Below are positions 37,920-64,000 of a stretch of 64,000 nt of DNA, one piece after another. Origin of the DNA: Loxodes magnus. Lineage: Eukaryota > Ciliophora > Karyorelictea > Loxodida > Loxodidae. Position numbers and translations under genes: made by a program. Where the stretch lies: NCBI GenBank assembly GCA_946699065.1, contig CAMPDV010001534.1:1-64000 (forward strand), read 5' to 3'. Under the pieces are notes generated by a model. It did not search any database, was not told the DNA's origin, and saw only the letters and a program-made list of their open reading frames with translations. How positions within the stretch are numbered: position 1 is the stretch's first letter; each line of letters begins with the position of its first letter.

Positions 37920-38247
37920 TTCTTTTATTATTTTAATTCTTCTTCTACTTATACTCATTTTACCGTTTTGGTTCCAGAAACCTAAACTCATTATCATAAA
38001 ATTTCGAAACTTAGTTAAAACTTAAAACCGTTTATAAAACTTGTTTATTTTTACTCTTTTTATCACATATTTGTCCTTCTATCTCTTTTTTACTTACAAA
38101 TCTCATTTTTTCATACCCTAAAATATAACTCATTTATTTTCATACACTTATTTACAAAATTACCATATTAATTATTTAAACATTTTACACACCTTTTTAT
38201 TAATAAAATTATTTCTTAAAAAATTATATTGTTCTGCTATCCACTCA

Positions 38248-39243: not shown

Positions 39244-39571
39244 TTCTTTTATTATTTTAATTCTTCTTCTACTTATACTCATTTTACCGTTTTGGTTCCA
39301 GAAACCTAAACTCATTATCATAAAATTTCGAAACTTAGTTAAAACTTAAAACCGTTTATAAAACTTGTTTATTTTTACTCTTTTTATCACATATTTGTCC
39401 TTCTATCTCTTTTTTACTTACAAATCTCATTTTTTCATACCCTAAAATATAACTCATTTATTTTCATACACTTATTTACAAAATTACCATATTAATTATT
39501 TAAACATTTTACACACCTTTTTATTAATAAAATTATTTCTTAAAAAATTATATTGTTCTGCTATCCACTCA

Positions 39572-40567: not shown

Positions 40568-40895
40568 TTCTTTTATTATTTTAATTCTTCTTCTACTTAT
40601 ACTCATTTTACCGTTTTGGTTCCAGAAACCTAAACTCATTATCATAAAATTTCGAAACTTAGTTAAAACTTAAAACCGTTTATAAAACTTGTTTATTTTT
40701 ACTCTTTTTATCACATATTTGTCCTTCTATCTCTTTTTTACTTACAAATCTCATTTTTTCATACCCTAAAATATAACTCATTTATTTTCATACACTTATT
40801 TACAAAATTACCATATTAATTATTTAAACATTTTACACACCTTTTTATTAATAAAATTATTTCTTAAAAAATTATATTGTTCTGCTATCCACTCA

Positions 40896-41891
40896 TCATT
40901 CCCATTCCTCATACACTTCATCAAAATCAAATCTTCTTTCACCTTCTCCATCAAAATCACTTTCTCTTCTTTCTTCTCTGTCACTTCTTCTACCTTCATT
41001 TCTTCTATCTTACTCTCCATCATGATCTCTTCTGTCATGTTCTCTTCTTCCATCATGTTCTCTCCTTTCATCATTGTCTCTTCTTTCATCATGATCTCTT
41101 CTTCCTTCTCTTCTTCCATGTTCACTTCCATTTTCTCTTCTTCCTTCATGTTCTCTCCTTTCATCATTGTCTCTTCTTTCATCATGATCTCTTCTACCAT
41201 GTTCTCTTCTTCCATGTTCGCTTCCATTTTCTCTTCTTCCTTCATGTTCTCTCCTTTCATCATTGTCTCTTCTTCCTTCTCTTCTTTCATCATGATCTCT
41301 TCTTCCATGTTCGCTTCCATTTTCTCTTCTTCCTTCTCTCCTTTCATCATGATCTCTTCTACCATGTTCTCTTCTTCCATCATTGTCTCTTCTTTCATCT
41401 TCAACATCAGTATCTCTTCTATCTTGTTCACCATTATCTCTTTCATCTCTTCTTCCATCATTGTCTCTTCTACCATGTTCTCTTCCTCCATCATTATCAT
41501 TACGTTCTCCTTACTCTCTTTACTCAAGGAAGTTATATCCATTCTATTATCCTTAGAATTATTACTAACCATTCTAACCTTATTATGGCTATTACCATCC
41601 ACCTTATTGCTATCCGTTTTATCCTTCATATCCATTTTATTACTAACCTTATTATGGCTATTACCATCCACCTTATTACTAACCTTATTATGGCTATTAC
41701 CATCCACCTTATTACTAACCTTATTATGGCTATTACCATCCACCTTATTGCTATCCGTTTTATCCTTCCTATCCATTTTATCCTACTTATCCATTTTATC
41801 CTTCTTATCCATACTGTCTCAACTTATTCTTTAACAAAGCACATTGAGCACATAACAAAGCAGCTAACACAAGACACACTGTTGTTTTCAT
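40896..41891 (-). CDS. Copy 32, secreted repeat protein, 331 aa
   Basis: Intact, reference type. Last of the 29-32 run. Confidence 0.8.
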
Positions 41892-42219
41892 TTCTTTTAT
41901 TATTTTAATTCTTCTTCTACTTATACTCATTTTACCGTTTTGGTTCCAGAAACCTAAACTCATTATCATAAAATTTCGAAACTTAGTTAAAACTTAAAAC
42001 CGTTTATAAAACTTGTTTATTTTTACTCTTTTTATCACATATTTGTCCTTCTATCTCTTTTTTACTTACAAATCTCATTTTTTCATACCCTAAAATATAA
42101 CTCATTTATTTTCATACACTTATTTACAAAATTACCATATTAATTATTTAAACATTTTACACACCTTTTTATTAATAAAATTATTTCTTAAAAAATTATA
42201 TTGTTCTGCTATCCACTCA

Positions 42220-43203
42220 TCATTCCCATTCCTCATACACTTCATCAAAATCAAATCTTCTTTCACCTTCTCCATCAAAATCACTTTCTCTTCTTTCTTC
42301 TCTGTCACTTCTTCTACCTTCATTTCTTCTATCTTACTCTCCATCATGATCTCTTCTGTCATGTTCTCTTCTTCCATCATGTTCTCTCCTTTCATCATTG
42401 TCTCTTCTTTCATCATGATCTCTTCTTCCATGTTCACTTCCATTTTCTCTTCTTCCTTCATGTTCTCTCCTTTCATCATTGTCTCTTCTTTCATCATGAT
42501 CTCTTCTACCATGTTCTCTTCTTCCATGTTCGCTTCCATTTTCTCTTCTTCCTTCATGTTCTCTCCTTTCATCATTGTCTCTTCTTCCTTCTCTTCTTTC
42601 ATCATGATCTCTTCTTCCATGTTCGCTTCCATTTTCTCTTCTTCCTTCTCTCCTTTCATCATGATCTCTTCTACCATGTTCTCTTCTTCCATCATTGTCT
42701 CTTCTTTCATCTTCAACATCAGTATCTCTTCTATCTTGTTCACCATTATCTCTTTCATCTCTTCTTCCATCATTGTCTCTTCTACCATGTTCTCTTCCTC
42801 CATCATTATCATTACGTTCTCCTTACTCTCTTTACTCAAGGAAGTTATATCCATTCTATTATCCTTAGAATTATTACTAACCATTCTAACCTTATTATGG
42901 CTATTACCATCCACCTTATTGCTATCCGTTTTATCCTTCATATCCATTTTATTACTAACCTTATTATGGCTATTACCATCCACCTTATTACTAACCTTAT
43001 TATGGCTATTACCATCCACCTTATTACTAACCTTATTATGGCTATTACCATCCACCTTATTGCTATCCGTTTTATCCTTCCTATCCATTTTATCCTACTT
43101 ATCCATTTTATCCTTCTTATCCATACTGTCTCAACTTATTCTTTAACAAAGCACATTGAGCACATAACAAAGCAGCTAACACAAGACACACTGTTGTTTT
43201 CAT
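42220..43203 (-). CDS. Copy 33, secreted repeat protein, 327 aa
   Basis: Intact. It lacks one GRRE tetrapeptide (12 bp) in the C-terminal half of the charged domain. This loss is shared by copies 33, 34 and 36-42 and defines that block. Confidence 0.8.
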
Positions 43204-43530
43204 TTCTTTTATTATTTTAATTCTTCTTCTACTTATACTCATTTTACCGTTTTGGTTCCAGAAACCTAAACTCATTATCATAAAATTTCGAAACTTAGTT
43301 AAAACTTAAAACCGTTTATAAAACTTGTTTATTTTTACTCTTTTTATCACATATTTGTCCTTCTATCTCTTTTTTACTTACAAATCTCATTTTTTCATAC
43401 CCTAAAATATAACTCATTTATTTTCATACACTTATTTACAAAATTACCATATTAATTATTTAAACATTTTACACACCTTTTTATTAATAAAATTATTTCT
43501 TAAAAATTATATTGTTCTGCTATCCACTCA

Positions 43531-44515
43531 TCATTCCCATTCCTCATACACTTCATCAAAATCAAATCTTCTTTCACCTTCTCCATCAAAATCACTTTCT
43601 CTTCTTTCTTCTCTGTCACTTCTTCTACCTTCATTTCTTCTATCTTACTCTCCATCATGATCTCTTCTGTCATGTTCTCTTCTTCCATCATGTTCTCTCC
43701 TTTCATCATTGTCTCTTCTTTCATCATGATCTCTTCTTCCATGTTCACTTCCATTTTCTCTTCTTCCTTCATGTTCTCTCCTTTCATCATTGTCTCTTCT
43801 TTCATCATGATCTCTTCTACCATGTTCTCTTCTTCCATGTTCGCTTCCATTTTCTCTTCTTCCTTCATGTTCTCTCCTTTCATCATTGTCTCTTCTTCCT
43901 TCTCTTCTTTCATCATGATCTCTTCTTCCATGTTCGCTTCCATTTTCTCTTCTTCCTTCTCTCCTTTCATCATGATCTCTTCTACCATGTTCTCTTCTTC
44001 CATCATTGTCTCTTCTTTCATCTTCAACATCAGTATCTCTTCTATCTTGTTCACCATTATCTCTTTCATCTCTTCTTCCATCATTGTCTCTTCTACCATG
44101 TTCTCTTCCTCCATCATTATCATTACGTTCTCCTTACTCTCTTTACTCAAGGAAGTTATATCCATTCTATTATCCTTAGAATTATTACTAACCATTCTAA
44201 CCTTATTATGGCTATTACCATCCACCTTATTGCTATCCGTTTTATCCTTCATATCCATTTTATTACTAACCTTATTATGGCTATTACCATCCACCTTATT
44301 ACTAACCTTATTATGGCTATTACCATCCACCTTATTACTAACCTTATTATGGCTATTACCATCCACCTTATTGCTATCCGTTTTTATCCTTCCTATCCAT
44401 TTTATCCTACTTATCCATTTTATCCTTCTTATCCATACTGTCTCAACTTATTCTTTAACAAAGCACATTGAGCACATAACAAAGCAGCTAACACAAGACA
44501 CACTGTTGTTTTCAT
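43531..44515 (-). pseudogene. Copy 34, frame broken near the N-terminus by a 1-base insertion
   Basis: An extra T in a T-run near 44385 shifts the frame at about residue 42, and a TGA follows at about residue 122. Homopolymer-length changes also occur in the flanks (one A fewer near 43505, one T more near 44555). This pattern suggests residual long-read error. Confidence 0.75.
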
Positions 44516-44845
44516 TTCTTTTATTATTTTAATTCTTCTTCTACTTATACTCATTTTTACCGTTTTGGTTCCAGAAACCTAAACTCATTATCATAAAATT
44601 TCGAAACTTAGTTAAAACTTAAAACCGTTTATAAAACTTGTTTATTTTTACTCTTTTTATCACATATTTGTCCTTCTATCTCTTTTTTACTTACAAATCT
44701 CATTTTTTTCATACCCTAAAATATAACTCATTTATTTTCATACACTTATTTACAAAATTACCATATTAATTATTTAAACATTTTACACACCTTTTTATTA
44801 ATAAAATTATTTCTTAAAAAATTATATTGTTCTGCTATCCACTCA

Positions 44846-45840
44846 TCATTCCCATTCCTCATACACTTCATCAAAATCAAATCTTCTTTCACCTTCTCCA
44901 TCAAAATCACTTTCTCTTCTTTCTTCTCTGTCACTTCTTCTACCTTCATTTCTTCTATCTTACTCTCCATCATGATCTCTTCTGTCATGTTCTCTTCTTC
45001 CATCATGTTCTCTCCTTTCATCATTGTCTCTTCTTTCATCATGATCTCTTCTTCCTTCTCTTCTTCCATGTTCACTTCCATTTTCTCTTCTTCCTTCATG
45101 TTCTCTCCTTTCATCATTGTCTCTTCTTTCATCATGATCTCTTCTACCATGTTCTCTTCTTCCATGTTCGCTTCCATTTTCTCTTCTTCCTTCATGTTCT
45201 CTCCTTTCATCATTGTCTCTTCTTCCTTCTCTTCTTTCATCATGATCTCTTCTTCCATGTTCGCTTCCATTTTCTCTTCTTCCTTCTCTCCTTTCATCAT
45301 GATCTCTTCTACCATGTTCTCTTCTTCCATCATTGTCTCTTCTTTCATCTTCAACATCAGTATCTCTTCTATCTTGTTCACCATTATCTCTTTCATCTCT
45401 TCTTCCATCATTGTCTCTTCTACCATGTTCTCTTCCTCCATCATTATCATTACGTTCTCCTTACTCTCTTTACTCAAGGAAGTTATATCCATTCTATTAT
45501 CCTTAGAATTATTACTAACCATTCTAACCCTATTATGGCTATTACCATCCACCTTATTGCTATCCGTTTTATCCTTCATATCCATTTTATTACTAACCTT
45601 TATTATGGCTATTACCATCCACCTTATTACTACCTTATTATGGCTATTACCATCCACCTTATTACTAACCTTATTATGGCTATTACCATCCACCTTATTG
45701 CTATCCGTTTTATCCTTCCTATCCATTTTATCCTACTTATCCATTTTATCCTTCTTATCCATACTGTCTCAACTTATTCTTTAACAAAGCACATTGAGCA
45801 CATAACAAAGCAGCTAACACAAGACACACTGTTGTTTCAT
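44846..45840 (-). pseudogene. Copy 35, several indels, frame lost at codon 3
   Basis: One T is missing next to the start (plus strand near 45835), so the signal peptide is lost from codon 3. There are further single-base changes near 45601 (extra T) and 45632 (missing A), and a substitution near 45530. It keeps the GRRE tetrapeptide that its neighbours lack. It is the most damaged copy. Confidence 0.75.
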
Positions 45841-46169
45841 TTCTTTTATTATTTTAATTCTTCTTCTACTTATACTCATTTTACCGTTTTGGTTCCAGAA
45901 ACCTAAACTCATTATCATAAAATTTCGAAACTTAGTTAAAACTTAAAACCGTTTATAAAACTTGTTTATTTTTACTCTTTTTATCACATATTATGTCCTT
46001 CTATCTCTTTTTTACTTACAAATCTCATTTTTTCATACCCTAAAATATAACTCATTTATTTTCATACACTTATTTACAAAATTACCATATTAATTATTTA
46101 AACATTTTACACACCTTTTTATTAATAAAATTATTTCTTAAAAAATTATATTGTTCTGCTATCCACTCA

Positions 46170-47171
46170 TCATTCCCATTCCTCATACACTTCATCAAAA
46201 TCAAATCTTCTTTCACCTTCTCCATCAAAATCACTTTCTCTTCTTTCTTCTCTGTCACTTCTTCTACCTTCATTTCTTCTATCTTACTCTCCATCATGAT
46301 CTCTTCTGTCATGTTCTCTTCTTCCATCATGTTCTCTCCTTTCATCATTGTCTCTTCTTCATCATGATCTCTTCTTCCATGTTCACTTCCATTTTCTCTT
46401 CTTCCTTCATGTTCTCTCCTTTCATCATTGTCTCTTCTTTCATCATGATCTCTTCTACCATGTTCTCTTCTTCCATGTTCGCTTCCATTTTCTCTTCTTC
46501 CTTCATGTTCTCTCCTTTCATCATTGTCTCTTCTTCCTTCTCTTCTTTCATCATGATCTCTTCTTTCATCATGATCTCTTCTTCCATGTTCGCTTCCATT
46601 TTCTCTTCTTCCTTCTCTCCTTTCATCATGATCTCTTCTACCATGTTCTCTTCTTCCATCATTGTCTCTTCTTTCATCTTCAACATCAGTATCTCTTCTA
46701 TCTTGTTCACCATTATCTCTTTCATCTCTTCTTCCATCATTGTCTCTTCTACCATGTTCTCTTCCTCCATCATTATCATTACGTTCTCCTTACTCTCTTT
46801 ACTCAAGGAAGTTATATCCATTCTATTATCCTTAGAATTATTACTAACCATTCTAACCTTATTATGGCTATTACCATCCACCTTATTGCTATCCGTTTTA
46901 TCCTTCATATCCATTTTATTACTAACCCTTATTATGGCTATTACCATCCACCTTATTACTAACCTTATTATGGCTATTACCATCCACCTTATTACTAACC
47001 TTATTATGGCTATTACCATCCACCTTATTGCTATCCGTTTTATCCTTCCTATCCATTTTATCCTACTTATCCATTTTATCCTTCTTATCCATACTGTCTC
47101 AACTTATTCTTTAACAAAGCACATTGAGCACATAACAAAGCAGCTAACACAAGACACACTGTTGTTTTCAT
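46170..47171 (-). pseudogene. Copy 36, two indels of opposite sign
   Basis: An extra C near 46928 and a missing T near 46358 restore the overall length but leave most of the protein out of frame, with TGA soon after the Gln/Trp domain. It has the DHDERR hexapeptide duplication seen also in copies 37, 41 and 42. Confidence 0.75.
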
Positions 47172-47500
47172 TTCTTTTATTATTTTAATTCTTCTTCTAC
47201 TTATACTCATTTTACCGTTTTGGTTCCAGAAACCTAAACTCATTATCATAAAATTTCGAAACTTAGTTAAAACTTAAAACCGTTTATAAAAACTTGTTTA
47301 TTTTTACTCTTTTTATCACATATTTGTCCTTCTATCTCTTTTTTACTTACAAATCTCATTTTTTCATACCCTAAAATATAACTCATTTATTTTCATACAC
47401 TTATTTACAAAATTACCATATTAATTATTTAAACATTTTACACACCTTTTTATTAATAAAATTATTTCTTAAAAAATTATATTGTTCTGCTATCCACTCA

Positions 47501-48503
47501 TCATTCCCATTCCTCATACACTTCATCAAAATCAAATCTTCTTTCACCTTCTCCATCAAAATCACTTTCTCTTCTTTCTTCTCTGTCACTTCTTCTACCT
47601 TCATTTCTTCTATCTTACTCTCCATCATGATCTCTTCTGTCATGTTCTCTTCTTCCATCATGTTCTCTCCTTTCATCATTGTCTCTTCTTTCATCATGAT
47701 CTCTTCTTCCATGTTCACTTCCATTTTCTCTTCTTCCTTCATGTTCTCTCCTTTCATCATTGTCTCTTCTTTCATCATGATCTCTTCTACCATGTTCTCT
47801 TCTTCCATGTTCGCTTCCATTTTCTCTTCTTCCTTCATGTTCTCTCCTTTCATCATTGTCTCTTCTTCCTTCTCTTCTTTCATCATGATCTCTTCTTTCA
47901 TCATGATCTCTTCTTCCATGTTCGCTTCCATTTTCTCTTCTTCCTTCTCTCCTTTCATCATGATCTCTTCTACCATGTTCTCTTCTCCATCATTGTCTCT
48001 TCTTTCATCTTCAACATCAGTATCTCTTCTATCTTGTTCACCATTATCTCTTTCATCTCTTCTTCCATCATTGTCTCTTCTACCATGTTCTCTTCCTCCA
48101 TCATTATCATTACGTTCTCCTTACTCTCTTTACTCAAGGAAGTTATATCCATTCTATTATCCTTAGAATTATTACTAACCATTCTAACCCTTATTATGGC
48201 TATTACCATCCACCTTATTGCTATCCGTTTTATCCTTCATATCCATTTTATTACTAACCTTATTATGGCTATTACCATCCACCTTATTACTAACCTTATT
48301 ATGGCTATTACCATCCACCTTATTACTAACCTTATTATGGCTATTACCATCCACCTTATTGCTATCCGTTTTATCCTTCCTATCCATTTTATCCTACTTA
48401 TCCATTTTATCCTTCTTATCCATACTGTCTCAACTTATTTCTTTAACAAAGCACATTGAGCACATAACAAAGCAGCTAACACAAGACACACTGTTGTTTT
48501 CAT
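47501..48503 (-). pseudogene. Copy 37, three single-base indels
   Basis: It has an extra T near 48438 just after the signal peptide, an extra C near 48188 and a missing T near 47987. Otherwise it has the copy 41/42 pattern with the hexapeptide duplication and the GRRE loss. Confidence 0.75.
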
Positions 48504-48832
48504 TTCTTTTATTATTTTAATTCTTCTTCTACTTATACTCATTTTACCGTTTTGGTTCCAGAAACCTAAACTCATTATCATAAAATTTCGAAACTTAGTT
48601 AAAACTTAAAACCGTTTATAAAACTTGTTTATTTTTACTCTTTTTATCACATATTTGTCCTTCTATCTCTTTTTTTACTTACAAATCTCATTTTTTCATA
48701 CCCTAAAATATAACTCATTTATTTTCATACACTTATTTACAAAATTACCATATTAATTATTTAAACATTTTACACACCTTTTTATTAATAAAATTATTTC
48801 TTAAAAAATTATATTGTTCTGCTATCCACTCA

Positions 48833-49816
48833 TCATTCCCATTCCTCATACACTTCATCAAAATCAAATCTTCTTTCACCTTCTCCATCAAAATCACTTT
48901 CTCTTCTTTCTTCTCTGTCACTTCTTCTACCTTCATTTCTTCTATCTTACTCTCCATCATGATCTCTTCTGTCATGTTCTCTTCTTCCATCATGTTCTCT
49001 CCTTTCATCATTGTCTCTTCTTTCATCATGATCTCTTCTTCCATGTTCACTTCCATTTTCTCTTCTTCCTTCATGTTCTCTCCTTTCATCATTGTCTCTT
49101 CTTTCATCATGATCTCTTCTACCATGTTCTCTTCTTCCATGTTCGCTTCCATTTTCTCTTCTCCTTCATGTTCTCTCCTTTCATCATTGTCTCTTCTTCC
49201 TTCTCTTCTTTCATCATGATCTCTTCTTCCATGTTCGCTTCCATTTTCCTCTTCTTCCTTCTCTCCTTTCATCATGATCTCTTCTACCATGTTCTCTTCT
49301 TCCATCATTGTCTCTTCTTTCATCTTCAACATCAGTATCTCTTCTATCTTGTTCACCATTATCTCTTTCATCTCTTCTTCCATCATTGTCTCTTCTACCA
49401 TGTTCTCTTCCTCCATCATTATCATTACGTTCTCCTTACTCTCTTTACTCAAGGAAGTTATATCCATTCTATTATCCTTAGAATTATTACTAACCATTCT
49501 AACCTTATTATGGCTATTACCATCCACCTTATTGCTATCCGTTTTATCCTTCATATCCATTTTATTACTAACCTTATTATGGCTATTACCATCCACCTTA
49601 TTACTAACCTTATTATGGCTATTACCATCCACCTTATTACTAACCTTATTATGGCTATTACCATCCACCTTATTGCTATCCGTTTTATCCTTCCTATCCA
49701 TTTTATCCTACTTATCCATTTTATCCTTCTTATCCATACTGTCTCAACTTATTCTTTAACAAAGCACATTGAGCACATAACAAAGCAGCTAACACAAGAC
49801 ACACTGTTGTTTTCAT
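48833..49816 (-). pseudogene. Copy 38, two compensating indels but TGA between them
   Basis: An extra C near 49248 and a missing T near 49161 cancel out, so the ends are in frame. The segment between is read in a frame that contains TGA at the GRRDHD motif. Otherwise it has the 327-aa pattern. Confidence 0.7.
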
Positions 49817-50144
49817 TTCTTTTATTATTTTAATTCTTCTTCTACTTATACTCATTTTACCGTTTTGGTTCCAGAAACCTAAACTCATTATCATAAAATT
49901 TCGAAACTTAGTTAAAACTTAAAACCGTTTATAAAACTTGTTTATTTTTACTCTTTTTATCACATATTTGTCCTTCTATCTCTTTTTTACTTACAAATCT
50001 CATTTTTTCATACCCTAAAATATAACTCATTTATTTTCATACACTTATTTACAAAATTACCATATTAATTATTTAAACATTTTACACACCTTTTTATTAA
50101 TAAAATTATTTCTTAAAAAATTATATTGTTCTGCTATCCACTCA

Positions 50145-51128
50145 TCATTCCCATTCCTCATACACTTCATCAAAATCAAATCTTCTTTCACCTTCTCCAT
50201 CAAAATCACTTTCTCTTCTTTCTTCTCTGTCACTTCTTCTACCTTCATTTCTTCTATCTTACTCTCCATCATGATCTCTTCTGTCATGTTCTCTTCTTCC
50301 ATCATGTTCTCTCCTTTCATCATTGTCTCTTCTTTCATCATGATCTCTTCTTCCATGTTCACTTCCATTTTCTCTTCTTCCTTCATGTTCTCTCCTTTCA
50401 TCATTGTCTCTTCTTTCATCATGATCTCTTCTACCATGTTCTCTTCTTCCATGTTCGCTTCCATTTTCTCTTCTTCCTTCATGTTCTCTCCTTTCATCAT
50501 TGTCTCTTCTTCCTTCTCTTCTTTCATCATGATCTCTTCTTCCATGTTCGCTTCCATTTTCTCTTCTTCCTTCTCTCCTTTCATCATGATCTCTTCTACC
50601 ATGTTCTCTTCTTCCATCATTGTCTCTTCTTTCATCTTCAACATCAGTATCTCTTCTATCTTGTTCACCATTATCTCTTTCATCTCTTCTTCCATCATTG
50701 TCTCTTCTACCATGTTCTCTTCCTCCATCATTATCATTACGTTCTCCTTACTCTCTTTACTCAAGGAAGTTATATCCATTCTATTATCCTTAGAATTATT
50801 ACTAACCATTCTAACCTTATTATGGCTATTACCATCCACCTTATTGCTATCCGTTTTATCCTTCATATCCATTTTATTACTAACCTTATTATGGCTATTA
50901 CCATCCACCTTATTACTAACCTTATTATGGCTATTACCATCCACCTTATTACTAACCTTATTATGGCTATTACCATCCACCTTATTGCTATCCGTTTTAT
51001 CCTTCCTATCCATTTTATCCTACTTATCCATTTTATCCTTCTTATCCATACTGTCTCAACTTATTCTTTAACAAAGCACATTGAGCACATAACAAAGCAG
51101 CTAACACAAGACACACTGTTGTTTTCAT
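50145..51128 (-). CDS. Copy 39, secreted repeat protein, 327 aa
   Basis: Intact, copy 33 type. First clean copy after the damaged cluster. Confidence 0.8.
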
Positions 51129-51457
51129 TTCTTTTATTATTTTAATTCTTCTTCTACTTATACTCATTTTACCGTTTTGGTTCCAGAAACCTAAACTCAT
51201 TATCATAAAATTTCGAAACTTAGTTAAAACTTAAAACCGTTTATAAAACTTGTTTATTTTTACTCTTTTTATCACATATTTGTCCTTCTATCTCTTTTTT
51301 ACTTACAAATCTCATTTTTTCATACCCTAAAATATAACTCATTTATTTTCATACACTTATTTACAAAATTACCATATTAATTATTTAAACATTTTACACA
51401 CCTTTTTATTAATAAAATTATTTCTTAAAAAAATTATATTGTTCTGCTATCCACTCA

Positions 51458-52441
51458 TCATTCCCATTCCTCATACACTTCATCAAAATCAAATCTTCTT
51501 TCACCTTCTCCATCAAAATCACTTTCTCTTCTTTCTTCTCTGTCACTTCTTCTACCTTCATTTCTTCTATCTTACTCTCCATCATGATCTCTTCTGTCAT
51601 GTTCTCTTCTTCCATCATGTTCTCTCCTTTCATCATTGTCTCTTCTTTCATCATGATCTCTTCTTCCATGTTCACTTCCATTTTCTCTTCTTCCTTCATG
51701 TTCTCTCCTTTCATCATTGTCTCTTCTTTCATCATGATCTCTTCTACCATGTTCTCTTCTTCCATGTTCGCTTCCATTTTCTCTTCTTCCTTCATGTTCT
51801 CTCCTTTCATCATTGTCTCTTCTTCCTTCTCTTCTTTCATCATGATCTCTTCTTCCATGTTCGCTTCCATTTTCTCTTCTTCCTTCTCTCCTTTCATCAT
51901 GATCTCTTCTACCATGTTCTCTTCTTCCATCATTGTCTCTTCTTTCATCTTCAACATCAGTATCTCTTCTATCTTGTTCACCATTATCTCTTTCATCTCT
52001 TCTTCCATCATTGTCTCTTCTACCATGTTCTCTTCCTCCATCATTATCATTACGTTCTCCTTACTCTCTTTACTCAAGGAAGTTATATCCATTCTATTAT
52101 CCTTAGAATTATTACTAACCATTCTAACCTTATTATGGCTATTACCATCCACCTTATTGCTATCCGTTTTATCCTTCATATCCATTTTATTACTAACCTT
52201 ATTATGGCTATTACCATCCACCTTATTACTAACCTTATTATGGCTATTACCATCCACCTTATTACTAACCTTATTATGGCTATTACCATCCACCTTATTG
52301 CTATCCGTTTTATCCTTCCTATCCATTTTATCCTACTTATCCATTTTATCCTTCTTATCCATACTGTCTCAACTTATTCTTTAACAAAGCACATTGAGCA
52401 CATAACAAAGCAGCTAACACAAGACACACTGTTGTTTTCAT
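51458..52441 (-). CDS. Copy 40, secreted repeat protein, 327 aa
   Basis: Intact, copy 33 type. One extra A near 51430 lies in its 3' flank and does not touch the gene, although it shifts the end of the overlapping Met/Glu-rich frame. Confidence 0.8.
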
Positions 52442-52769
52442 TTCTTTTATTATTTTAATTCTTCTTCTACTTATACTCATTTTACCGTTTTGGTTCCAGA
52501 AACCTAAACTCATTATCATAAAATTTCGAAACTTAGTTAAAACTTAAAACCGTTTATAAAACTTGTTTATTTTTACTCTTTTTATCACATATTTGTCCTT
52601 CTATCTCTTTTTTACTTACAAATCTCATTTTTTCATACCCTAAAATATAACTCATTTATTTTCATACACTTATTTACAAAATTACCATATTAATTATTTA
52701 AACATTTTACACACCTTTTTATTAATAAAATTATTTCTTAAAAAATTATATTGTTCTGCTATCCACTCA

Positions 52770-53771
52770 TCATTCCCATTCCTCATACACTTCATCAAAA
52801 TCAAATCTTCTTTCACCTTCTCCATCAAAATCACTTTCTCTTCTTTCTTCTCTGTCACTTCTTCTACCTTCATTTCTTCTATCTTACTCTCCATCATGAT
52901 CTCTTCTGTCATGTTCTCTTCTTCCATCATGTTCTCTCCTTTCATCATTGTCTCTTCTTTCATCATGATCTCTTCTTCCATGTTCACTTCCATTTTCTCT
53001 TCTTCCTTCATGTTCTCTCCTTTCATCATTGTCTCTTCTTTCATCATGATCTCTTCTACCATGTTCTCTTCTTCCATGTTCGCTTCCATTTTCTCTTCTT
53101 CCTTCATGTTCTCTCCTTTCATCATTGTCTCTTCTTCCTTCTCTTCTTTCATCATGATCTCTTCTTTCATCATGATCTCTTCTTCCATGTTCGCTTCCAT
53201 TTTCTCTTCTTCCTTCTCTCCTTTCATCATGATCTCTTCTACCATGTTCTCTTCTTCCATCATTGTCTCTTCTTTCATCTTCAACATCAGTATCTCTTCT
53301 ATCTTGTTCACCATTATCTCTTTCATCTCTTCTTCCATCATTGTCTCTTCTACCATGTTCTCTTCCTCCATCATTATCATTACGTTCTCCTTACTCTCTT
53401 TACTCAAGGAAGTTATATCCATTCTATTATCCTTAGAATTATTACTAACCATTCTAACCTTATTATGGCTATTACCATCCACCTTATTGCTATCCGTTTT
53501 ATCCTTCATATCCATTTTATTACTAACCTTATTATGGCTATTACCATCCACCTTATTACTAACCTTATTATGGCTATTACCATCCACCTTATTACTAACC
53601 TTATTATGGCTATTACCATCCACCTTATTGCTATCCGTTTTATCCTTCCTATCCATTTTATCCTACTTATCCATTTTATCCTTCTTATCCATACTGTCTC
53701 AACTTATTCTTTAACAAAGCACATTGAGCACATAACAAAGCAGCTAACACAAGACACACTGTTGTTTTCAT
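52770..53771 (-). CDS. Copy 41, secreted repeat protein, 333 aa
   Basis: Intact. Copy 33 pattern plus an 18-bp duplication that repeats DHDERR. The length equals copy 7 by coincidence; the composition differs. Confidence 0.8.
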
Positions 53772-54099
53772 TTCTTTTATTATTTTAATTCTTCTTCTAC
53801 TTATACTCATTTTACCGTTTTGGTTCCAGAAACCTAAACTCATTATCATAAAATTTCGAAACTTAGTTAAAACTTAAAACCGTTTATAAAACTTGTTTAT
53901 TTTTACTCTTTTTATCACATATTTGTCCTTCTATCTCTTTTTTACTTACAAATCTCATTTTTTCATACCCTAAAATATAACTCATTTATTTTCATACACT
54001 TATTTACAAAATTACCATATTAATTATTTAAACATTTTACACACCTTTTTATTAATAAAATTATTTCTTAAAAAATTATATTGTTCTGCTATCCACTCA

Positions 54100-55101
54100 T
54101 CATTCCCATTCCTCATACACTTCATCAAAATCAAATCTTCTTTCACCTTCTCCATCAAAATCACTTTCTCTTCTTTCTTCTCTGTCACTTCTTCTACCTT
54201 CATTTCTTCTATCTTACTCTCCATCATGATCTCTTCTGTCATGTTCTCTTCTTCCATCATGTTCTCTCCTTTCATCATTGTCTCTTCTTTCATCATGATC
54301 TCTTCTTCCATGTTCACTTCCATTTTCTCTTCTTCCTTCATGTTCTCTCCTTTCATCATTGTCTCTTCTTTCATCATGATCTCTTCTACCATGTTCTCTT
54401 CTTCCATGTTCGCTTCCATTTTCTCTTCTTCCTTCATGTTCTCTCCTTTCATCATTGTCTCTTCTTCCTTCTCTTCTTTCATCATGATCTCTTCTTTCAT
54501 CATGATCTCTTCTTCCATGTTCGCTTCCATTTTCTCTTCTTCCTTCTCTCCTTTCATCATGATCTCTTCTACCATGTTCTCTTCTTCCATCATTGTCTCT
54601 TCTTTCATCTTCAACATCAGTATCTCTTCTATCTTGTTCACCATTATCTCTTTCATCTCTTCTTCCATCATTGTCTCTTCTACCATGTTCTCTTCCTCCA
54701 TCATTATCATTACGTTCTCCTTACTCTCTTTACTCAAGGAAGTTATATCCATTCTATTATCCTTAGAATTATTACTAACCATTCTAACCTTATTATGGCT
54801 ATTACCATCCACCTTATTGCTATCCGTTTTATCCTTCATATCCATTTTATTACTAACCTTATTATGGCTATTACCATCCACCTTATTACTAACCTTATTA
54901 TGGCTATTACCATCCACCTTATTACTAACCTTATTATGGCTATTACCATCCACCTTATTGCTATCCGTTTTATCCTTCCTATCCATTTTATCCTACTTAT
55001 CCATTTTATCCTTCTTATCCATACTGTCTCAACTTATTCTTTAACAAAGCACATTGAGCACATAACAAAGCAGCTAACACAAGACACACTGTTGTTTTCA
55101 T
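54100..55101 (-). CDS. Copy 42, secreted repeat protein, 333 aa
   Basis: Intact. Matches copy 41. Confidence 0.8.
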
Positions 55102-55429
55102 TTCTTTTATTATTTTAATTCTTCTTCTACTTATACTCATTTTACCGTTTTGGTTCCAGAAACCTAAACTCATTATCATAAAATTTCGAAACTTAGTTAA
55201 AACTTAAAACCGTTTATAAAACTTGTTTATTTTTACTCTTTTTATCACATATTTGTCCTTCTATCTCTTTTTTACTTACAAATCTCATTTTTTCATACCC
55301 TAAAATATAACTCATTTATTTTCATACACTTATTTACAAAATTACCATATTAATTATTTAAACATTTTACACACCTTTTTATTAATAAAATTATTTCTTA
55401 AAAAATTATATTGTTCTGCTATCCACTCA

Positions 55430-56614
55430 TCATTCCCATTCCTCATACACTTCATCAAAATCAAATCTTCTTTCACCTTCTCCATCAAAATCACTTTCTC
55501 TTCTTTCTTCTCTGTCACTTCTTCTACCTTCATTTCTTCTATCTTACTCTCCATCATGATCTCTTCTGTCATGTTCTCTTCTTCCATCATGTTCTCTCCT
55601 TTCATCATTGTCTCTTCTTTCATCATGATCTCTTCTTCCTTCTCTTCTTCCATGTTCACTTCCATTTTCTCTTCTTCCTTCATGTTCTCTCCTTTCATCA
55701 TTGTCTCTTCTTTCATCATGATCTCTTCTACCATGTTCTCTTCTTCCATGTTCGCTTCCATTTTCTCTTCTTCCTTCATGTTCTCTCCTTTCATCATTGT
55801 CTCTTCTTCCTTCTCTTCTTTCATCATGATCTCTTCTTCCATGTTCACTTCCATTTTCTCTTCTTCCTTCATGTTCTCTCCTTTCATCATTGTCTCTTCT
55901 TTCATCATGATCTCTTCTACCATGTTCTCTTCTTCCATGTTCGCTTCCATTTTCTCTTCTTCCTTCATGTTCTCTCCTTTCATCATTGTCTCTTCTTCCT
56001 TCTCTTCTTTCATCATGATCTCTTCTTCCATGTTCGCTTCCATTTTCTCTTCTTCCTTCTCTCCTTTCATCATGATCTCTTCTACCATGTTCTCTTCTTC
56101 CATCATTGTCTCTTCTTTCATCTTCAACATCAGTATCTCTTCTATCTTGTTCACCATTATCTCTTTCATCTCTTCTTCCATCATTGTCTCTTCTACCATG
56201 TTCTCTTCCTCCATCATTATCATTACGTTCTCCTTACTCTCTTTACTCAAGGAAGTTATATCCATTCTATTATCCTTAGAATTATTACTAACCATTCTAA
56301 CCTTATTATGGCTATTACCATCCACCTTATTGCTATCCGTTTTATCCTTCATATCCATTTTATTACTAACCTTATTATGGCTATTACCATCCACCTTATT
56401 ACTAACCTTATTATGGCTATTACCATCCACCTTATTACTAACCTTATTATGGCTATTACCATCCACCTTATTGCTATCCGTTTTATCCTTCCTATCCATT
56501 TTATCCTACTTATCCATTTTATCCTTCTTATCCATACTGTCTCAACTTATTCTTTAACAAAGCACATTGAGCACATAACAAAGCAGCTAACACAAGACAC
56601 ACTGTTGTTTTCAT
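55430..56614 (-). CDS. Copy 43, secreted repeat protein, longest form, 394 aa
   Basis: Intact. It has 63 more residues than the 331-aa type because a long block of the charged domain is present twice. One block lacks the GRRE tetrapeptide, as in copies 33-42, and the other keeps it, as in copies 44-48. This copy sits exactly between those two blocks and looks like the product of unequal crossing-over between the two types. Confidence 0.8.
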
Positions 56615-56942
56615 TTCTTTTATTATTTTAATTCTTCTTCTACTTATACTCATTTTACCGTTTTGGTTCCAGAAACCTAAACTCATTATCATAAAATTTC
56701 GAAACTTAGTTAAAACTTAAAACCGTTTATAAAACTTGTTTATTTTTACTCTTTTTATCACATATTTGTCCTTCTATCTCTTTTTTACTTACAAATCTCA
56801 TTTTTTCATACCCTAAAATATAACTCATTTATTTTCATACACTTATTTACAAAATTACCATATTAATTATTTAAACATTTTACACACCTTTTTATTAATA
56901 AAATTATTTCTTAAAAAATTATATTGTTCTGCTATCCACTCA

Positions 56943-57938
56943 TCATTCCCATTCCTCATACACTTCATCAAAATCAAATCTTCTTTCACCTTCTCCATCA
57001 AAATCACTTTCTCTTCTTTCTTCTCTGTCACTTCTTCTACCTTCATTTCTTCTATCTTACTCTCCATCATGATCTCTTCTGTCATGTTCTCTTCTTCCAT
57101 CATGTTCTCTCCTTTCATCATTGTCTCTTCTTTCATCATGATCTCTTCTTCCTTCTCTTCTTCCATGTTCACTTCCATTTTCTCTTCTTCCTTCATGTTC
57201 TCTCCTTTCATCATTGTCTCTTCTTTCATCATGATCTCTTCTACCATGTTCTCTTCTTCCATGTTCGCTTCCATTTTCTCTTCTTCCTTCATGTTCTCTC
57301 CTTTCATCATTGTCTCTTCTTCCTTCTCTTCTTTCATCATGATCTCTTCTTCCATGTTCGCTTCCATTTTCTCTTCTTCCTTCTCTCCTTTCATCATGAT
57401 CTCTTCTACCATGTTCTCTTCTTCCATCATTGTCTCTTCTTTCATCTTCAACATCAGTATCTCTTCTATCTTGTTCACCATTATCTCTTTCATCTCTTCT
57501 TCCATCATTGTCTCTTCTACCATGTTCTCTTCCTCCATCATTATCATTACGTTCTCCTTACTCTCTTTACTCAAGGAAGTTATATCCATTCTATTATCCT
57601 TAGAATTATTACTAACCATTCTAACCTTATTATGGCTATTACCATCCACCTTATTGCTATCCGTTTTATCCTTCATATCCATTTTATTACTAACCTTATT
57701 ATGGCTATTACCATCCACCTTATTACTAACCTTATTATGGCTATTACCATCCACCTTATTACTAACCTTATTATGGCTATTACCATCCACCTTATTGCTA
57801 TCCGTTTTATCCTTCCTATCCATTTTATCCTACTTATCCATTTTATCCTTCTTATCCATACTGTCTCAACTTATTCTTTAACAAAGCACATTGAGCACAT
57901 AACAAAGCAGCTAACACAAGACACACTGTTGTTTTCAT
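56943..57938 (-). CDS. Copy 44, secreted repeat protein, 331 aa
   Basis: Intact, reference type. First of five like copies (44-48) at 1324-bp spacing. Confidence 0.8.
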
Positions 57939-58214
57939 TTCTTTTATTATTTTAATTCTTCTTCTACTTATACTCATTTTACCGTTTTGGTTCCAGAAAC
58001 CTAAACTCATTATCATAAAATTTCGAAACTTAGTTAAAACTTAAAACCGTTTATAAAACTTGTTTATTTTTACTCTTTTTATCACATATTTGTCCTTCTA
58101 TCTCTTTTTTACTTACAAATCTCATTTTTTCATACCCTAAAATATAACTCATTTATTTTCATACACTTATTTACAAAATTACCATATTAATTATTTAAAC
58201 ATTTTACACACCTT

Positions 58215-58220
58215 TTTATT
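58215..58220 (-). terminator. Candidate poly(A) signal of the reference copy
   Basis: AATAAA on the minus strand lies 47 bases beyond the TGA and is followed at once by AAGGTGTGT, a GT-rich element like those downstream of many eukaryotic cleavage sites. The same pair appears in the spacers examined throughout the array. Use of AATAAA in the likely host lineage is not certain. Confidence 0.5.
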
Positions 58221-58266
58221 AATAAAATTATTTCTTAAAAAATTATATTGTTCTGCTATCCACTCA

Positions 58267-59262
58267 TCATTCCCATTCCTCATACACTTCATCAAAATCA
58301 AATCTTCTTTCACCTTCTCCATCAAAATCACTTTCTCTTCTTTCTTCTCTGTCACTTCTTCTACCTTCATTTCTTCTATCTTACTCTCCATCATGATCTC
58401 TTCTGTCATGTTCTCTTCTTCCATCATGTTCTCTCCTTTCATCATTGTCTCTTCTTTCATCATGATCTCTTCTTCCTTCTCTTCTTCCATGTTCACTTCC
58501 ATTTTCTCTTCTTCCTTCATGTTCTCTCCTTTCATCATTGTCTCTTCTTTCATCATGATCTCTTCTACCATGTTCTCTTCTTCCATGTTCGCTTCCATTT
58601 TCTCTTCTTCCTTCATGTTCTCTCCTTTCATCATTGTCTCTTCTTCCTTCTCTTCTTTCATCATGATCTCTTCTTCCATGTTCGCTTCCATTTTCTCTTC
58701 TTCCTTCTCTCCTTTCATCATGATCTCTTCTACCATGTTCTCTTCTTCCATCATTGTCTCTTCTTTCATCTTCAACATCAGTATCTCTTCTATCTTGTTC
58801 ACCATTATCTCTTTCATCTCTTCTTCCATCATTGTCTCTTCTACCATGTTCTCTTCCTCCATCATTATCATTACGTTCTCCTTACTCTCTTTACTCAAGG
58901 AAGTTATATCCATTCTATTATCCTTAGAATTATTACTAACCATTCTAACCTTATTATGGCTATTACCATCCACCTTATTGCTATCCGTTTTATCCTTCAT
59001 ATCCATTTTATTACTAACCTTATTATGGCTATTACCATCCACCTTATTACTAACCTTATTATGGCTATTACCATCCACCTTATTACTAACCTTATTATGG
59101 CTATTACCATCCACCTTATTGCTATCCGTTTTATCCTTCCTATCCATTTTATCCTACTTATCCATTTTATCCTTCTTATCCATACTGTCTCAACTTATTC
59201 TTTAACAAAGCACATTGAGCACATAACAAAGCAGCTAACACAAGACACACTGTTGTTTTCAT
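58267..59262 (-). CDS. Copy 45 (reference copy): secreted Gln/Gly/Trp-rich and Arg/Asp/Glu-rich repeat protein, 331 aa, TAA/TAG read as Gln
   Basis: No known family was recognised. Residues 1-18 are a signal peptide (basic start, hydrophobic core, cleavage likely after AQCA). Residues 29-46 are QxG triplets. Residues 47-82 are three QQQGGWQQPQQG 12-mers, with a fourth at 94-105. Residues 106-134 are Gln/Gly/Asn-rich with NGYNFLE. Residues 135-331 are charged repeats built from GRRE, DHDERR and ENGSEHGRR, ending FDFDEVYEEWE. After the signal peptide there is no Cys and no obvious membrane segment. About 46 of 51 Gln codons are TAA or TAG; the gene ends at tandem TGA TGA. MKTT is preferred as start because it gives the best signal peptide; an in-frame ATG 13 codons upstream (59299-59301) is possible. 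Secretion follows from the signal peptide. A self-associating wall, matrix, cement or extrusome role is inference from composition and copy number. Confidence 0.82.
58270..58860 (-). repeat. Charged-domain repeats (reference copy)
   Basis: They encode residues 135-331. Short motifs GRRE, DHDERR, DNDERR, REHEGRR and ENGSEHGRR recur in irregular order. The coding strand is very rich in purines (AGA, GAA, GGA, GAT). Between motif copies the changes are mostly silent: GGA/GGT, AGA/AGG, GAT/GAC, AGT/AGC. All length variants between gene copies arise in this domain. Confidence 0.88.
58948..58983 (-). repeat. Separate fourth copy of the 36-bp Gln/Trp repeat (reference copy)
   Basis: It encodes residues 94-105, QQQGGWQQPQQG. 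Its second codon is CAA where two of the tandem copies have TAA, which supports reading TAA as Gln. It is set apart by a short NGYEGQNG spacer. Confidence 0.9.
59017..59124 (-). repeat. Three tandem 36-bp repeats encoding QQQGGWQQPQQG (reference copy)
   Basis: They cover residues 47-82. Seven of every twelve codons are TAA, TAG or (once) CAA. In the standard code this would be the densest possible run of stops; with TAA/TAG as Gln it is a regular low-complexity repeat. All complete units have three tandem copies here plus one separate copy. Confidence 0.92.
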
Positions 59263-59590
59263 TTCTTTTATTATTTTAATTCTTCTTCTACTTATACTCA
59301 TTTTACCGTTTTGGTTCCAGAAACCTAAACTCATTATCATAAAATTTCGAAACTTAGTTAAAACTTAAAACCGTTTATAAAACTTGTTTATTTTTACTCT
59401 TTTTATCACATATTTGTCCTTCTATCTCTTTTTTACTTACAAATCTCATTTTTTCATACCCTAAAATATAACTCATTTATTTTCATACACTTATTTACAA
59501 AATTACCATATTAATTATTTAAACATTTTACACACCTTTTTATTAATAAAATTATTTCTTAAAAAATTATATTGTTCTGCTATCCACTCA
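59263..59590 (-). promoter_or_regulatory. Reference inter-gene spacer (328 bp)
   Basis: It runs from the stop of copy 46 to the start of copy 45 and is repeated nearly unchanged between all copies. It is very AT-rich and has no ORF with coding character. Going upstream from the ATG there is an A-rich leader, TTCTGGAA at 59315-59322 (the TTCnnGAA arrangement of a minimal heat-shock element), the palindrome TTTCGAAA at 59345-59352 and TTTATAAA at 59374-59381. These are candidate promoter elements only; chance occurrence is likely in such AT-rich DNA. Every copy carries its own spacer, so each gene could have its own promoter. Confidence 0.5.
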
Positions 59591-60586
59591 TCATTCCCAT
59601 TCCTCATACACTTCATCAAAATCAAATCTTCTTTCACCTTCTCCATCAAAATCACTTTCTCTTCTTTCTTCTCTGTCACTTCTTCTACCTTCATTTCTTC
59701 TATCTTACTCTCCATCATGATCTCTTCTGTCATGTTCTCTTCTTCCATCATGTTCTCTCCTTTCATCATTGTCTCTTCTTTCATCATGATCTCTTCTTCC
59801 TTCTCTTCTTCCATGTTCACTTCCATTTTCTCTTCTTCCTTCATGTTCTCTCCTTTCATCATTGTCTCTTCTTTCATCATGATCTCTTCTACCATGTTCT
59901 CTTCTTCCATGTTCGCTTCCATTTTCTCTTCTTCCTTCATGTTCTCTCCTTTCATCATTGTCTCTTCTTCCTTCTCTTCTTTCATCATGATCTCTTCTTC
60001 CATGTTCGCTTCCATTTTCTCTTCTTCCTTCTCTCCTTTCATCATGATCTCTTCTACCATGTTCTCTTCTTCCATCATTGTCTCTTCTTTCATCTTCAAC
60101 ATCAGTATCTCTTCTATCTTGTTCACCATTATCTCTTTCATCTCTTCTTCCATCATTGTCTCTTCTACCATGTTCTCTTCCTCCATCATTATCATTACGT
60201 TCTCCTTACTCTCTTTACTCAAGGAAGTTATATCCATTCTATTATCCTTAGAATTATTACTAACCATTCTAACCTTATTATGGCTATTACCATCCACCTT
60301 ATTGCTATCCGTTTTATCCTTCATATCCATTTTATTACTAACCTTATTATGGCTATTACCATCCACCTTATTACTAACCTTATTATGGCTATTACCATCC
60401 ACCTTATTACTAACCTTATTATGGCTATTACCATCCACCTTATTGCTATCCGTTTTATCCTTCCTATCCATTTTATCCTACTTATCCATTTTATCCTTCT
60501 TATCCATACTGTCTCAACTTATTCTTTAACAAAGCACATTGAGCACATAACAAAGCAGCTAACACAAGACACACTGTTGTTTTCAT
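59591..60586 (-). CDS. Copy 46, secreted repeat protein, 331 aa
   Basis: Intact, reference type. No difference seen from copy 45. Confidence 0.8.
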
Positions 60587-60914
60587 TTCTTTTATTATTT
60601 TAATTCTTCTTCTACTTATACTCATTTTACCGTTTTGGTTCCAGAAACCTAAACTCATTATCATAAAATTTCGAAACTTAGTTAAAACTTAAAACCGTTT
60701 ATAAAACTTGTTTATTTTTACTCTTTTTATCACATATTTGTCCTTCTATCTCTTTTTTACTTACAAATCTCATTTTTTCATACCCTAAAATATAACTCAT
60801 TTATTTTCATACACTTATTTACAAAATTACCATATTAATTATTTAAACATTTTACACACCTTTTTATTAATAAAATTATTTCTTAAAAAATTATATTGTT
60901 CTGCTATCCACTCA

Positions 60915-61910
60915 TCATTCCCATTCCTCATACACTTCATCAAAATCAAATCTTCTTTCACCTTCTCCATCAAAATCACTTTCTCTTCTTTCTTCTCTGT
61001 CACTTCTTCTACCTTCATTTCTTCTATCTTACTCTCCATCATGATCTCTTCTGTCATGTTCTCTTCTTCCATCATGTTCTCTCCTTTCATCATTGTCTCT
61101 TCTTTCATCATGATCTCTTCTTCCTTCTCTTCTTCCATGTTCACTTCCATTTTCTCTTCTTCCTTCATGTTCTCTCCTTTCATCATTGTCTCTTCTTTCA
61201 TCATGATCTCTTCTACCATGTTCTCTTCTTCCATGTTCGCTTCCATTTTCTCTTCTTCCTTCATGTTCTCTCCTTTCATCATTGTCTCTTCTTCCTTCTC
61301 TTCTTTCATCATGATCTCTTCTTCCATGTTCGCTTCCATTTTCTCTTCTTCCTTCTCTCCTTTCATCATGATCTCTTCTACCATGTTCTCTTCTTCCATC
61401 ATTGTCTCTTCTTTCATCTTCAACATCAGTATCTCTTCTATCTTGTTCACCATTATCTCTTTCATCTCTTCTTCCATCATTGTCTCTTCTACCATGTTCT
61501 CTTCCTCCATCATTATCATTACGTTCTCCTTACTCTCTTTACTCAAGGAAGTTATATCCATTCTATTATCCTTAGAATTATTACTAACCATTCTAACCTT
61601 ATTATGGCTATTACCATCCACCTTATTGCTATCCGTTTTATCCTTCATATCCATTTTATTACTAACCTTATTATGGCTATTACCATCCACCTTATTACTA
61701 ACCTTATTATGGCTATTACCATCCACCTTATTACTAACCTTATTATGGCTATTACCATCCACCTTATTGCTATCCGTTTTATCCTTCCTATCCATTTTAT
61801 CCTACTTATCCATTTTATCCTTCTTATCCATACTGTCTCAACTTATTCTTTAACAAAGCACATTGAGCACATAACAAAGCAGCTAACACAAGACACACTG
61901 TTGTTTTCAT
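60915..61910 (-). CDS. Copy 47, secreted repeat protein, 331 aa
   Basis: Intact, reference type. No difference seen from copy 45. Confidence 0.8.
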
Positions 61911-62238
61911 TTCTTTTATTATTTTAATTCTTCTTCTACTTATACTCATTTTACCGTTTTGGTTCCAGAAACCTAAACTCATTATCATAAAATTTCGAAA
62001 CTTAGTTAAAACTTAAAACCGTTTATAAAACTTGTTTATTTTTACTCTTTTTATCACATATTTGTCCTTCTATCTCTTTTTTACTTACAAATCTCATTTT
62101 TTCATACCCTAAAATATAACTCATTTATTTTCATACACTTATTTACAAAATTACCATATTAATTATTTAAACATTTTACACACCTTTTTATTAATAAAAT
62201 TATTTCTTAAAAAATTATATTGTTCTGCTATCCACTCA

Positions 62239-63234
62239 TCATTCCCATTCCTCATACACTTCATCAAAATCAAATCTTCTTTCACCTTCTCCATCAAAAT
62301 CACTTTCTCTTCTTTCTTCTCTGTCACTTCTTCTACCTTCATTTCTTCTATCTTACTCTCCATCATGATCTCTTCTGTCATGTTCTCTTCTTCCATCATG
62401 TTCTCTCCTTTCATCATTGTCTCTTCTTTCATCATGATCTCTTCTTCCTTCTCTTCTTCCATGTTCACTTCCATTTTCTCTTCTTCCTTCATGTTCTCTC
62501 CTTTCATCATTGTCTCTTCTTTCATCATGATCTCTTCTACCATGTTCTCTTCTTCCATGTTCGCTTCCATTTTCTCTTCTTCCTTCATGTTCTCTCCTTT
62601 CATCATTGTCTCTTCTTCCTTCTCTTCTTTCATCATGATCTCTTCTTCCATGTTCGCTTCCATTTTCTCTTCTTCCTTCTCTCCTTTCATCATGATCTCT
62701 TCTACCATGTTCTCTTCTTCCATCATTGTCTCTTCTTTCATCTTCAACATCAGTATCTCTTCTATCTTGTTCACCATTATCTCTTTCATCTCTTCTTCCA
62801 TCATTGTCTCTTCTACCATGTTCTCTTCCTCCATCATTATCATTACGTTCTCCTTACTCTCTTTACTCAAGGAAGTTATATCCATTCTATTATCCTTAGA
62901 ATTATTACTAACCATTCTAACCTTATTATGGCTATTACCATCCACCTTATTGCTATCCGTTTTATCCTTCATATCCATTTTATTACTAACCTTATTATGG
63001 CTATTACCATCCACCTTATTACTAACCTTATTATGGCTATTACCATCCACCTTATTACTAACCTTATTATGGCTATTACCATCCACCTTATTGCTATCCG
63101 TTTTATCCTTCCTATCCATTTTATCCTACTTATCCATTTTATCCTTCTTATCCATACTGTCTCAACTTATTCTTTAACAAAGCACATTGAGCACATAACA
63201 AAGCAGCTAACACAAGACACACTGTTGTTTTCAT
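62239..63234 (-). CDS. Copy 48, secreted repeat protein, 331 aa
   Basis: Intact, reference type. Last complete copy in the window. Confidence 0.8.
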
Positions 63235-63562
63235 TTCTTTTATTATTTTAATTCTTCTTCTACTTATACTCATTTTACCGTTTTGGTTCCAGAAACCTAA
63301 ACTCATTATCATAAAATTTCGAAACTTAGTTAAAACTTAAAACCGTTTATAAAACTTGTTTATTTTTACTCTTTTTATCACATATTTGTCCTTCTATCTC
63401 TTTTTTACTTACAAATCTCATTTTTTCATACCCTAAAATATAACTCATTTATTTTCATACACTTATTTACAAAATTACCATATTAATTATTTAAACATTT
63501 TACACACCTTTTTATTAATAAAATTATTTCTTAAAAAATTATATTGTTCTGCTATCCACTCA

Positions 63563-64000
63563 TCATTCCCATTCCTCATACACTTCATCAAAATCAAATC
63601 TTCTTTCACCTTCTCCATCAAAATCACTTTCTCTTCTTTCTTCTCTGTCACTTCTTCTACCTTCATTTCTTCTATCTTACTCTCCATCATGATCTCTTCT
63701 GTCATTTTCTCTTCTTCCATCATGTTCTCTCCTTTCATCATTGTCTCTTCTTTCATCATGATCTCTTCTTCCTTCTCTTCTTCCATGTTCGCTTCCATTT
63801 TCTCTTCTTCCTTCATGTTCTCTCCTTTCATCATTGTCTCTTCTTCCTTCTCTTCTTTCATCATGATCTCTTCTTCCATGTTCGCTTCCATTTTCTCTTC
63901 TTCCTTCTCTCCTTTCATCATGATCTCTTCTACCATGTTCTCTTCTTCCATCATTGTCTCTTCTTTCATCTTCAACATCAGTATCTCTTCTATCTTGTTC
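63563..64000 (-). CDS. Copy 49, partial, C-terminal 145 codons
   Basis: The start and Gln/Trp domain lie beyond the right edge. The visible part is in frame to TGA at 63563-63565. It has a shortened charged domain compared with copy 48 and a private G to T at 63706 (plus strand) that changes His to Asn. It is therefore a distinct type and not part of the 44-48 run. Confidence 0.78.

Follow-up and report, generated by a model that had tools for sequence, protein, structure and literature searches.

A tandem array of near-identical genes with TGA as the apparent sole stop codon and a predicted secreted repeat protein as product

The window analysed here, a stretch of 64,000 bp, contains nothing but a head-to-tail tandem array. 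The repeated unit is probably a single intronless eukaryotic gene that ends in TGA, uses TAA and TAG as glutamine codons and would encode an abundant secreted matrix or adhesive protein. The array, the parts of one unit and the open reading frames competing with its gene are located as follows.

1..64000, minus strand: head-to-tail tandem array with 48 unit starts, extending past both ends of the window
58267..59262, minus strand: gene of one unit in NCBI table 6 (code 6), 331 codons with 46 TAA/TAG, stop TGA
58264..58269, minus strand: tandem stop TGA TGA
59185..59262, minus strand: leader, codons 1-26 (MKTTVCLVLAALLCAQCALLKNKLRQ), hydrophobic and signal-peptide-like (Kyte-Doolittle 11-residue mean up to 3.1)
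58882..59184, minus strand: Gln/Gly-rich repeat domain, codons 27-127 (GGWQQPQQGQQQ, EGQNGQ), with 45 of the 46 TAA/TAG codons
58270..58881, minus strand: charged repeat domain, codons 128-331 (RRDHDE, RRENGSEHG and similar)
57939..58266, minus strand: spacer to the ATG of the next unit, 328 bp with a G+C content of 21%, counted from behind the first TGA
58191..59147, minus strand: overlapping Met/Glu-rich standard-code ORF of 318 aa, not regarded as the gene
58248..59279, plus strand: standard-code ORF of 343 aa, starting from TTG
58393..59205, plus strand: standard-code ORF of 270 aa

Translation of the minus strand of 58267-59262 with table 6 revealed 33 in-frame TAA and 13 in-frame TAG codons and no internal TGA. 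A plus-strand reading of the same interval was discarded, as the gene is located on the minus strand. The first TAA/TAG is found at codon 29, which is why the frame ends there in the standard code. Both the 331 codons up to TGA TGA and the standard stop at codon 29, as given in the initial annotation, were thereby reproduced, and its hand count of about 46 TAA/TAG codons proved to be exact. The product had also been described as an ordered protein, which holds for a regularly repetitive sequence and not in any wider sense. In 2000 first-order Markov simulations based on these 996 bases, not a single TGA-free frame was obtained (mean of 17.6 TGA per frame). TGA is the sole terminator in 35 of the 48 units, all of them ending in TGA TGA, and these units represent one gene type only.

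Unit starts were accepted with at most three substitutions in the first 30 bases (47 of the 48 match the first 22 bases exactly), and unit numbers run from right to left across the window. The 47 spacings between unit starts range from 1096 to 1513 bp, with 1324 bp (11 times) and 1330 bp (10 times) as the commonest values. All copies are arranged head to tail on the same strand with short spacers and, as read from the open frame, without introns. Leader, frame, tail and TGATGA are intact in 35 units, which encode 13 distinct proteins of 255 to 394 amino acids with 46 TAA/TAG codons in each. The gene had been expected in every unit, an expectation to be restricted to these 35, since 13 of the 48 (units 10-14, 27, 40 and 42-47) are broken as assembled. 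Unit 13 does arrive at TGATGA, 331 codons on, but was scored as broken because of two 1-base indels of opposite sign. The nearly invariant spacer is 328 bp long in all units without a shift; the length changes are located in the repeat domain and not in the spacer. Nine types of indel between 3 and 228 bp long, each present in at least two units, as well as the 189-bp insertion of unit 5, are all multiples of three, partly because the internal repeats are themselves multiples of three in length. Long indels shared between units are absent from the spacer, which hence provides no control for this pattern.

Indels that are not multiples of three were tallied by hand in an alignment to unit 3. 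Of the 30 entries, 20 concern the gene, which makes up 75% of the unit length, and 10 the spacer; entries at unit edges (units 12, 13 and 47) may stem from the points at which the units were cut. Most of these indels are restricted to one unit each. A T inserted between GAAAGGA and GAGAACA was found in units 40 and 44 and also in unit 47, where its 94-bp insertion lies. At position 243, one extra base is present in unit 12 (G) and in unit 13 (A). The grouping of such indels in units 8-14 and 40-47 suggests residual sequencing or assembly errors, and part of them may be real decay. Among the eight leftmost units of the window (units 40-47, 581-10839), seven are not intact, unit 41 being the exception; this region is either a decaying edge of the array or a stretch of poor consensus.

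After masking of the indels that are not multiples of three and removal of the unit 13 substitutions, adjacent units share the same haplotype 18 times, compared to 4.6 times on average and at most 13 times in 20000 permutations. Such haplotype sharing by neighbours would be the trace expected of local unequal exchange or gene conversion. Units 20-24 (30733-36595) show a small higher-order pattern, in which short units of 1096 bp alternate with long ones of 1333 bp (haplotypes 4, 5, 4, 5 and 5).

The code-6 frame carries a clear coding signature and is highly likely to be coding, with TAA and TAG as sense codons. Codon-position composition, divergence of the internal repeats and the 35 intact units all argue for this and for the earlier proposal that TGA is the only stop codon. 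The G+C content at codon positions 1, 2 and 3 is 51, 41 and 15%, with 21% in the spacer. For position 3, the 26-codon leader has 35%, the Gln domain 24% and the charged domain 8%, so that the leader taken by itself lacks the coding pattern. Synonymous choices end in A or T in 281 of 325 cases in this frame (162.5 under uniform choice) and in 160 of 266 cases in the Met/Glu frame (135.5 under uniform choice). All 2364 repeat-paired bases within one unit were found at offsets divisible by three. The 227 paired repeat differences, which come from overlapping and hence not independent repeat pairs, fall on codon position 3 in 124, position 1 in 61 and position 2 in 42 cases. In the code-6 frame, 75 of them are silent, compared to 10 and 14 in the two remaining frames of this strand (5 to 8-fold fewer) and 15, 70 and 34 in the three frames of the opposite strand. 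Antisense frame 1, in which the 70 silent differences come near the code-6 count, is interrupted by 12 stop codons, six of which are TGA; its wobble positions presumably pair with those of the gene.

Glutamine is the most likely residue for TAA and TAG (UAR = Gln). Codons 48 and 95 are CAA where the sister repeats have TAA, and codon 156 (CAA) aligns with codon 294 (TAA) within GEQDRR. These CAA/TAA exchanges, which concern two separate positions of the repeats, favour glutamine, and so does the distribution of the code across protists. Glutamate was ruled out for TAA/TAG, as these codons are segregated by domain from GAA/GAG (45:5 against 1:41, Fisher 4e-19), and likewise for TAG alone (13:5 against 0:41, Fisher 2e-9). 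The same segregation test results in p values of 0.19 for glutamine and 0.16 for tyrosine and does not separate these two residues. The same gene with the same TGA stop could be decoded with tyrosine at TAA and TAG, as in Mesodinium, or with lysine at TAA and glutamate at TAG; the N-terminal domain would then be rich in tyrosine (GGWYYPYYG) or charged, and not rich in glutamine. Codes of both kinds exist (PMC10553269), and codon 41 (TAG) aligns with codon 88 (TAT) in equivalent repeat contexts, a difference that is silent under tyrosine only. In a wider repeat comparison, which provides thin evidence, the partners of TAA/TAG are CAA in four pairs (all with TAA), AAC in four and TAT in three (with TAA or TAG). 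These alternative decodings are nevertheless improbable: the CAA/TAA exchanges speak for glutamine, lysine/glutamate is contradicted by the rejection of glutamate for TAG, and tyrosine is reported from one ciliate genus, glutamine from several eukaryote groups (PMC5304391, PMC10553269). The initial assignment to glutamine is backed by the CAA/TAA exchanges, with the TAG/TAT exchange pointing to tyrosine instead. No tRNA gene was detected in the window by ARAGORN.

Codes with UAR = Gln and UGA as stop codon are described for some ciliates, ulvophytes, hexamitin diplomonads and oxymonads (PMC5304391). The array resembles this code (table 6) in its in-frame TAA/TAG codons, its TGA stop and the tandem TGA (PMC5304391, PMC6879139, PMC11437800), and also in TAA being the commonest glutamine codon (33 of 51). 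A second UGA behind the stop is reported to be enriched in UGA-only ciliates (PMC6879139, PMC10553269), which the TGA TGA of the array fits, while the one UGA-only diplomonad examined in the former source showed no preference for a second UGA (PMC6879139). TAA and TAG account for 46 of the 51 glutamine codons in the array gene, compared to 102 of 279 in highly expressed and 5273 of 8564 in weakly expressed genes of Spironucleus salmonicida (sums from Table 2 of PMC1805757). Under the codon use of the highly expressed genes, the log-likelihood per codon is -1.24, as opposed to -0.96 to -0.75 for 500 simulated genes; under that of the weakly expressed ones it is -0.93, above the simulated range of -1.20 to -1.07. 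The codon use of the array is therefore unlike that of highly expressed S. salmonicida genes and not unlike that of weakly expressed ones. Arginine is encoded by AGA in 57 of 62 cases, and CAG serves for only one of the 51 glutamines. A strong preference for AGA is usual in ciliates. A ciliate source seems slightly more probable than a hexamitid one.

The leader, a hydrophobic stretch following an N-terminal lysine right behind the ATG, predicts with good confidence that the protein is secreted. It contains all three cysteines of the protein (positions 6, 14 and 17). Residues 27-127 comprise 47 Gln and 25 Gly and consist of repeats of GGWQQPQQGQQQ, while in residues 128-331 there are 60 Arg, 77 Asp/Glu and 15 His. 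The protein carries three NGS sequons as well as 28 Arg-Arg steps, and its C-terminus reads FDFDEVYEEWE. No relatives of the protein were found in Pfam, NCBIfam or PDB, and one unit gave no relative by blastn against phages and plasmids. A pattern search yielded two pattern stretches in viral contigs, neither of which was confirmed, and no relative in prokaryote genome contigs. This lack of relatives says little, because the searched collections are not of protists. No RNA gene was identified in 57938-60700, where the only candidate was potC with 20.7 bits compared to a gathering score of 44.

Judged by composition alone, the protein may tentatively be assigned a structural or adhesive role in bulk, as a component of a matrix, coat, cyst or adhesive. 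A demand for large amounts of product would be in line with the dozens of near-identical gene copies for a predicted secreted protein of low complexity. Wheat glutenin-like proteins consist of Gln/Gly/Pro repeats with low complexity of the PQQGQQQ type. This repeat type is shared by the array protein, without a sequence match, and the latter has in addition a Trp per repeat and the long Arg/acidic domain. Another conceivable role is that of a secreted precursor, from which kexin-like cleavage at the 28 Arg-Arg dipeptides would release many short acidic peptides (DHDE, DNDE, ENGSEHG); repeat-type peptide precursors undergo comparable Arg-Arg processing into short peptides. Identical fragments recur between the Arg-Arg steps (DHDE four times, DNDE, ENGSEHG and EG three times each), and the gene copy number would raise the peptide output. 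However, the fragments are merely 2 to 13 residues long and of mixed kinds, the Arg-Arg steps may just offset the acidic charge, and no protease is known for the cleavage, all of which makes a precursor unlikely.

The array could also be taken for non-coding satellite DNA, in which an asymmetry of purines and pyrimidines between the strands leaves long open frames by chance. Such DNA would account for the regular array filling the window, for the GC skew of -0.66 to -0.76, for several overlapping open frames on both strands and for the lack of homologues in the collections searched, which do not cover protists. It would not account for the codon-position composition and silent repeat divergence in the code-6 frame, the signal-like leader directly after the ATG, the tandem TGA, the AT-rich 328-bp spacer and the intact state of 35 of 48 units, and is regarded as very improbable. 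The long ORFs of the plus strand can be explained by the pyrimidine-rich strand, on which stop codons are rarely formed. Both of them (343 and 270 aa) are disfavoured as the gene by composition and repeat divergence, and neither of them has a match in Pfam. They do affect what a standard-code annotation would yield: the Met/Glu-rich ORF predicted by the initial annotation to be reported instead of the gene does exist, but an annotator might not pick it, because the two plus-strand ORFs are on offer as well. That the 318-aa Met/Glu-rich ORF is the real product is hardly credible, since its ATG start and its length of at least 295 codons in most units (318 in the reference unit) are set against a codon-position G+C content of 40, 14 and 50%, odd for an AT-rich genome, silent repeat differences in only 10 of 227 cases, the lack of a signal-like leader and of a Pfam match, and the substitution G1002A, located behind the code-6 stop, which converts TGG to TAG in the Met/Glu frame of 12 units (32-42 and 44), the ORF having 295-297 codons in units 32-37, 39 and 41 compared to 318-320.

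For the preferred reading, a UAR = Gln gene multiplied in tandem, partial counterparts are found among other protists. The immobilization antigens of Ichthyophthirius, a ciliate with UAR = Gln (PMC6879139), are secretory proteins with internal repeats, whose genes are mostly adjacent in tandem arrays (PMC3341644). The array shares with them the internal repeats, the tandem genes and probably UAR = Gln, secretion of its protein being predicted. The antigens are characterized by periodic cysteines, GPI signals and 17 differing genes, whereas the array protein has its three cysteines in the leader and a charged C-terminus, and its gene copies are near-identical. Neither repeats with periodic cysteines nor a hydrophobic C-terminal anchor signal was found in the array protein. 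For Spironucleus, the description of a chromosome-scale genome (PMC9509377) names tandemly arrayed 5S rRNA and histone H4, cysteine-rich proteins in arrays and a repeat of 64 kbp that consists of two 33-kbp copies, none of which corresponds to the array unit. The genome of Hexamita inflata is reported to be large, rich in repeats and written in an alternative code (PMC11787283). In dinoflagellates, tandem blocks of single-exon genes encode peridinin-chlorophyll protein and ice-binding proteins, and the copies are proposed to enhance expression (PMC7245778). The array is similar to these blocks in its many single-exon copies in tandem on the same strand (PMC7245778) and differs in the protein, the genetic code, the near-invariance of its spacers and the confinement of length changes to the repeat domain. 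By analogy with the proposal for the dinoflagellate genes, its copy number would be best explained by a bulk demand for the product.

The signal-like leader would export the product, and the Gln/Gly/Trp/Pro repeats together with the Arg-Arg/acidic repeats would make it a matrix, coat or adhesive protein of low complexity that is required in large amounts. The many near-identical copies would increase the output, while unequal crossing-over or gene conversion might keep neighbouring units alike and alter the number of internal repeats. A literature search led to no description recognised as that of the array, which does not establish that the array is unpublished. The genetic code is already known; the array and its protein look new among tandem dosage arrays and low-complexity secreted proteins. 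It is possible, although doubtful, that this array, 64 kb or more in length, belongs to a UAR = Gln protist and encodes, in the form of a secreted two-part protein, a new kind of extracellular matrix or adhesive protein or a precursor cut at Arg-Arg. If so, copy number would act as the expression mechanism, and the load of reassigned codons would tie the output to the supply of suppressor tRNA, approximately 90% of the glutamines (46 of 51) being encoded by former stop codons. With 48 copies begun in 64 kb, the array illustrates that a heavily multiplied gene of a recoded protist can escape annotation under the standard code, and it offers a test case for gene dosage via tandem arrays and for translation at a very high density of reassigned stop codons.
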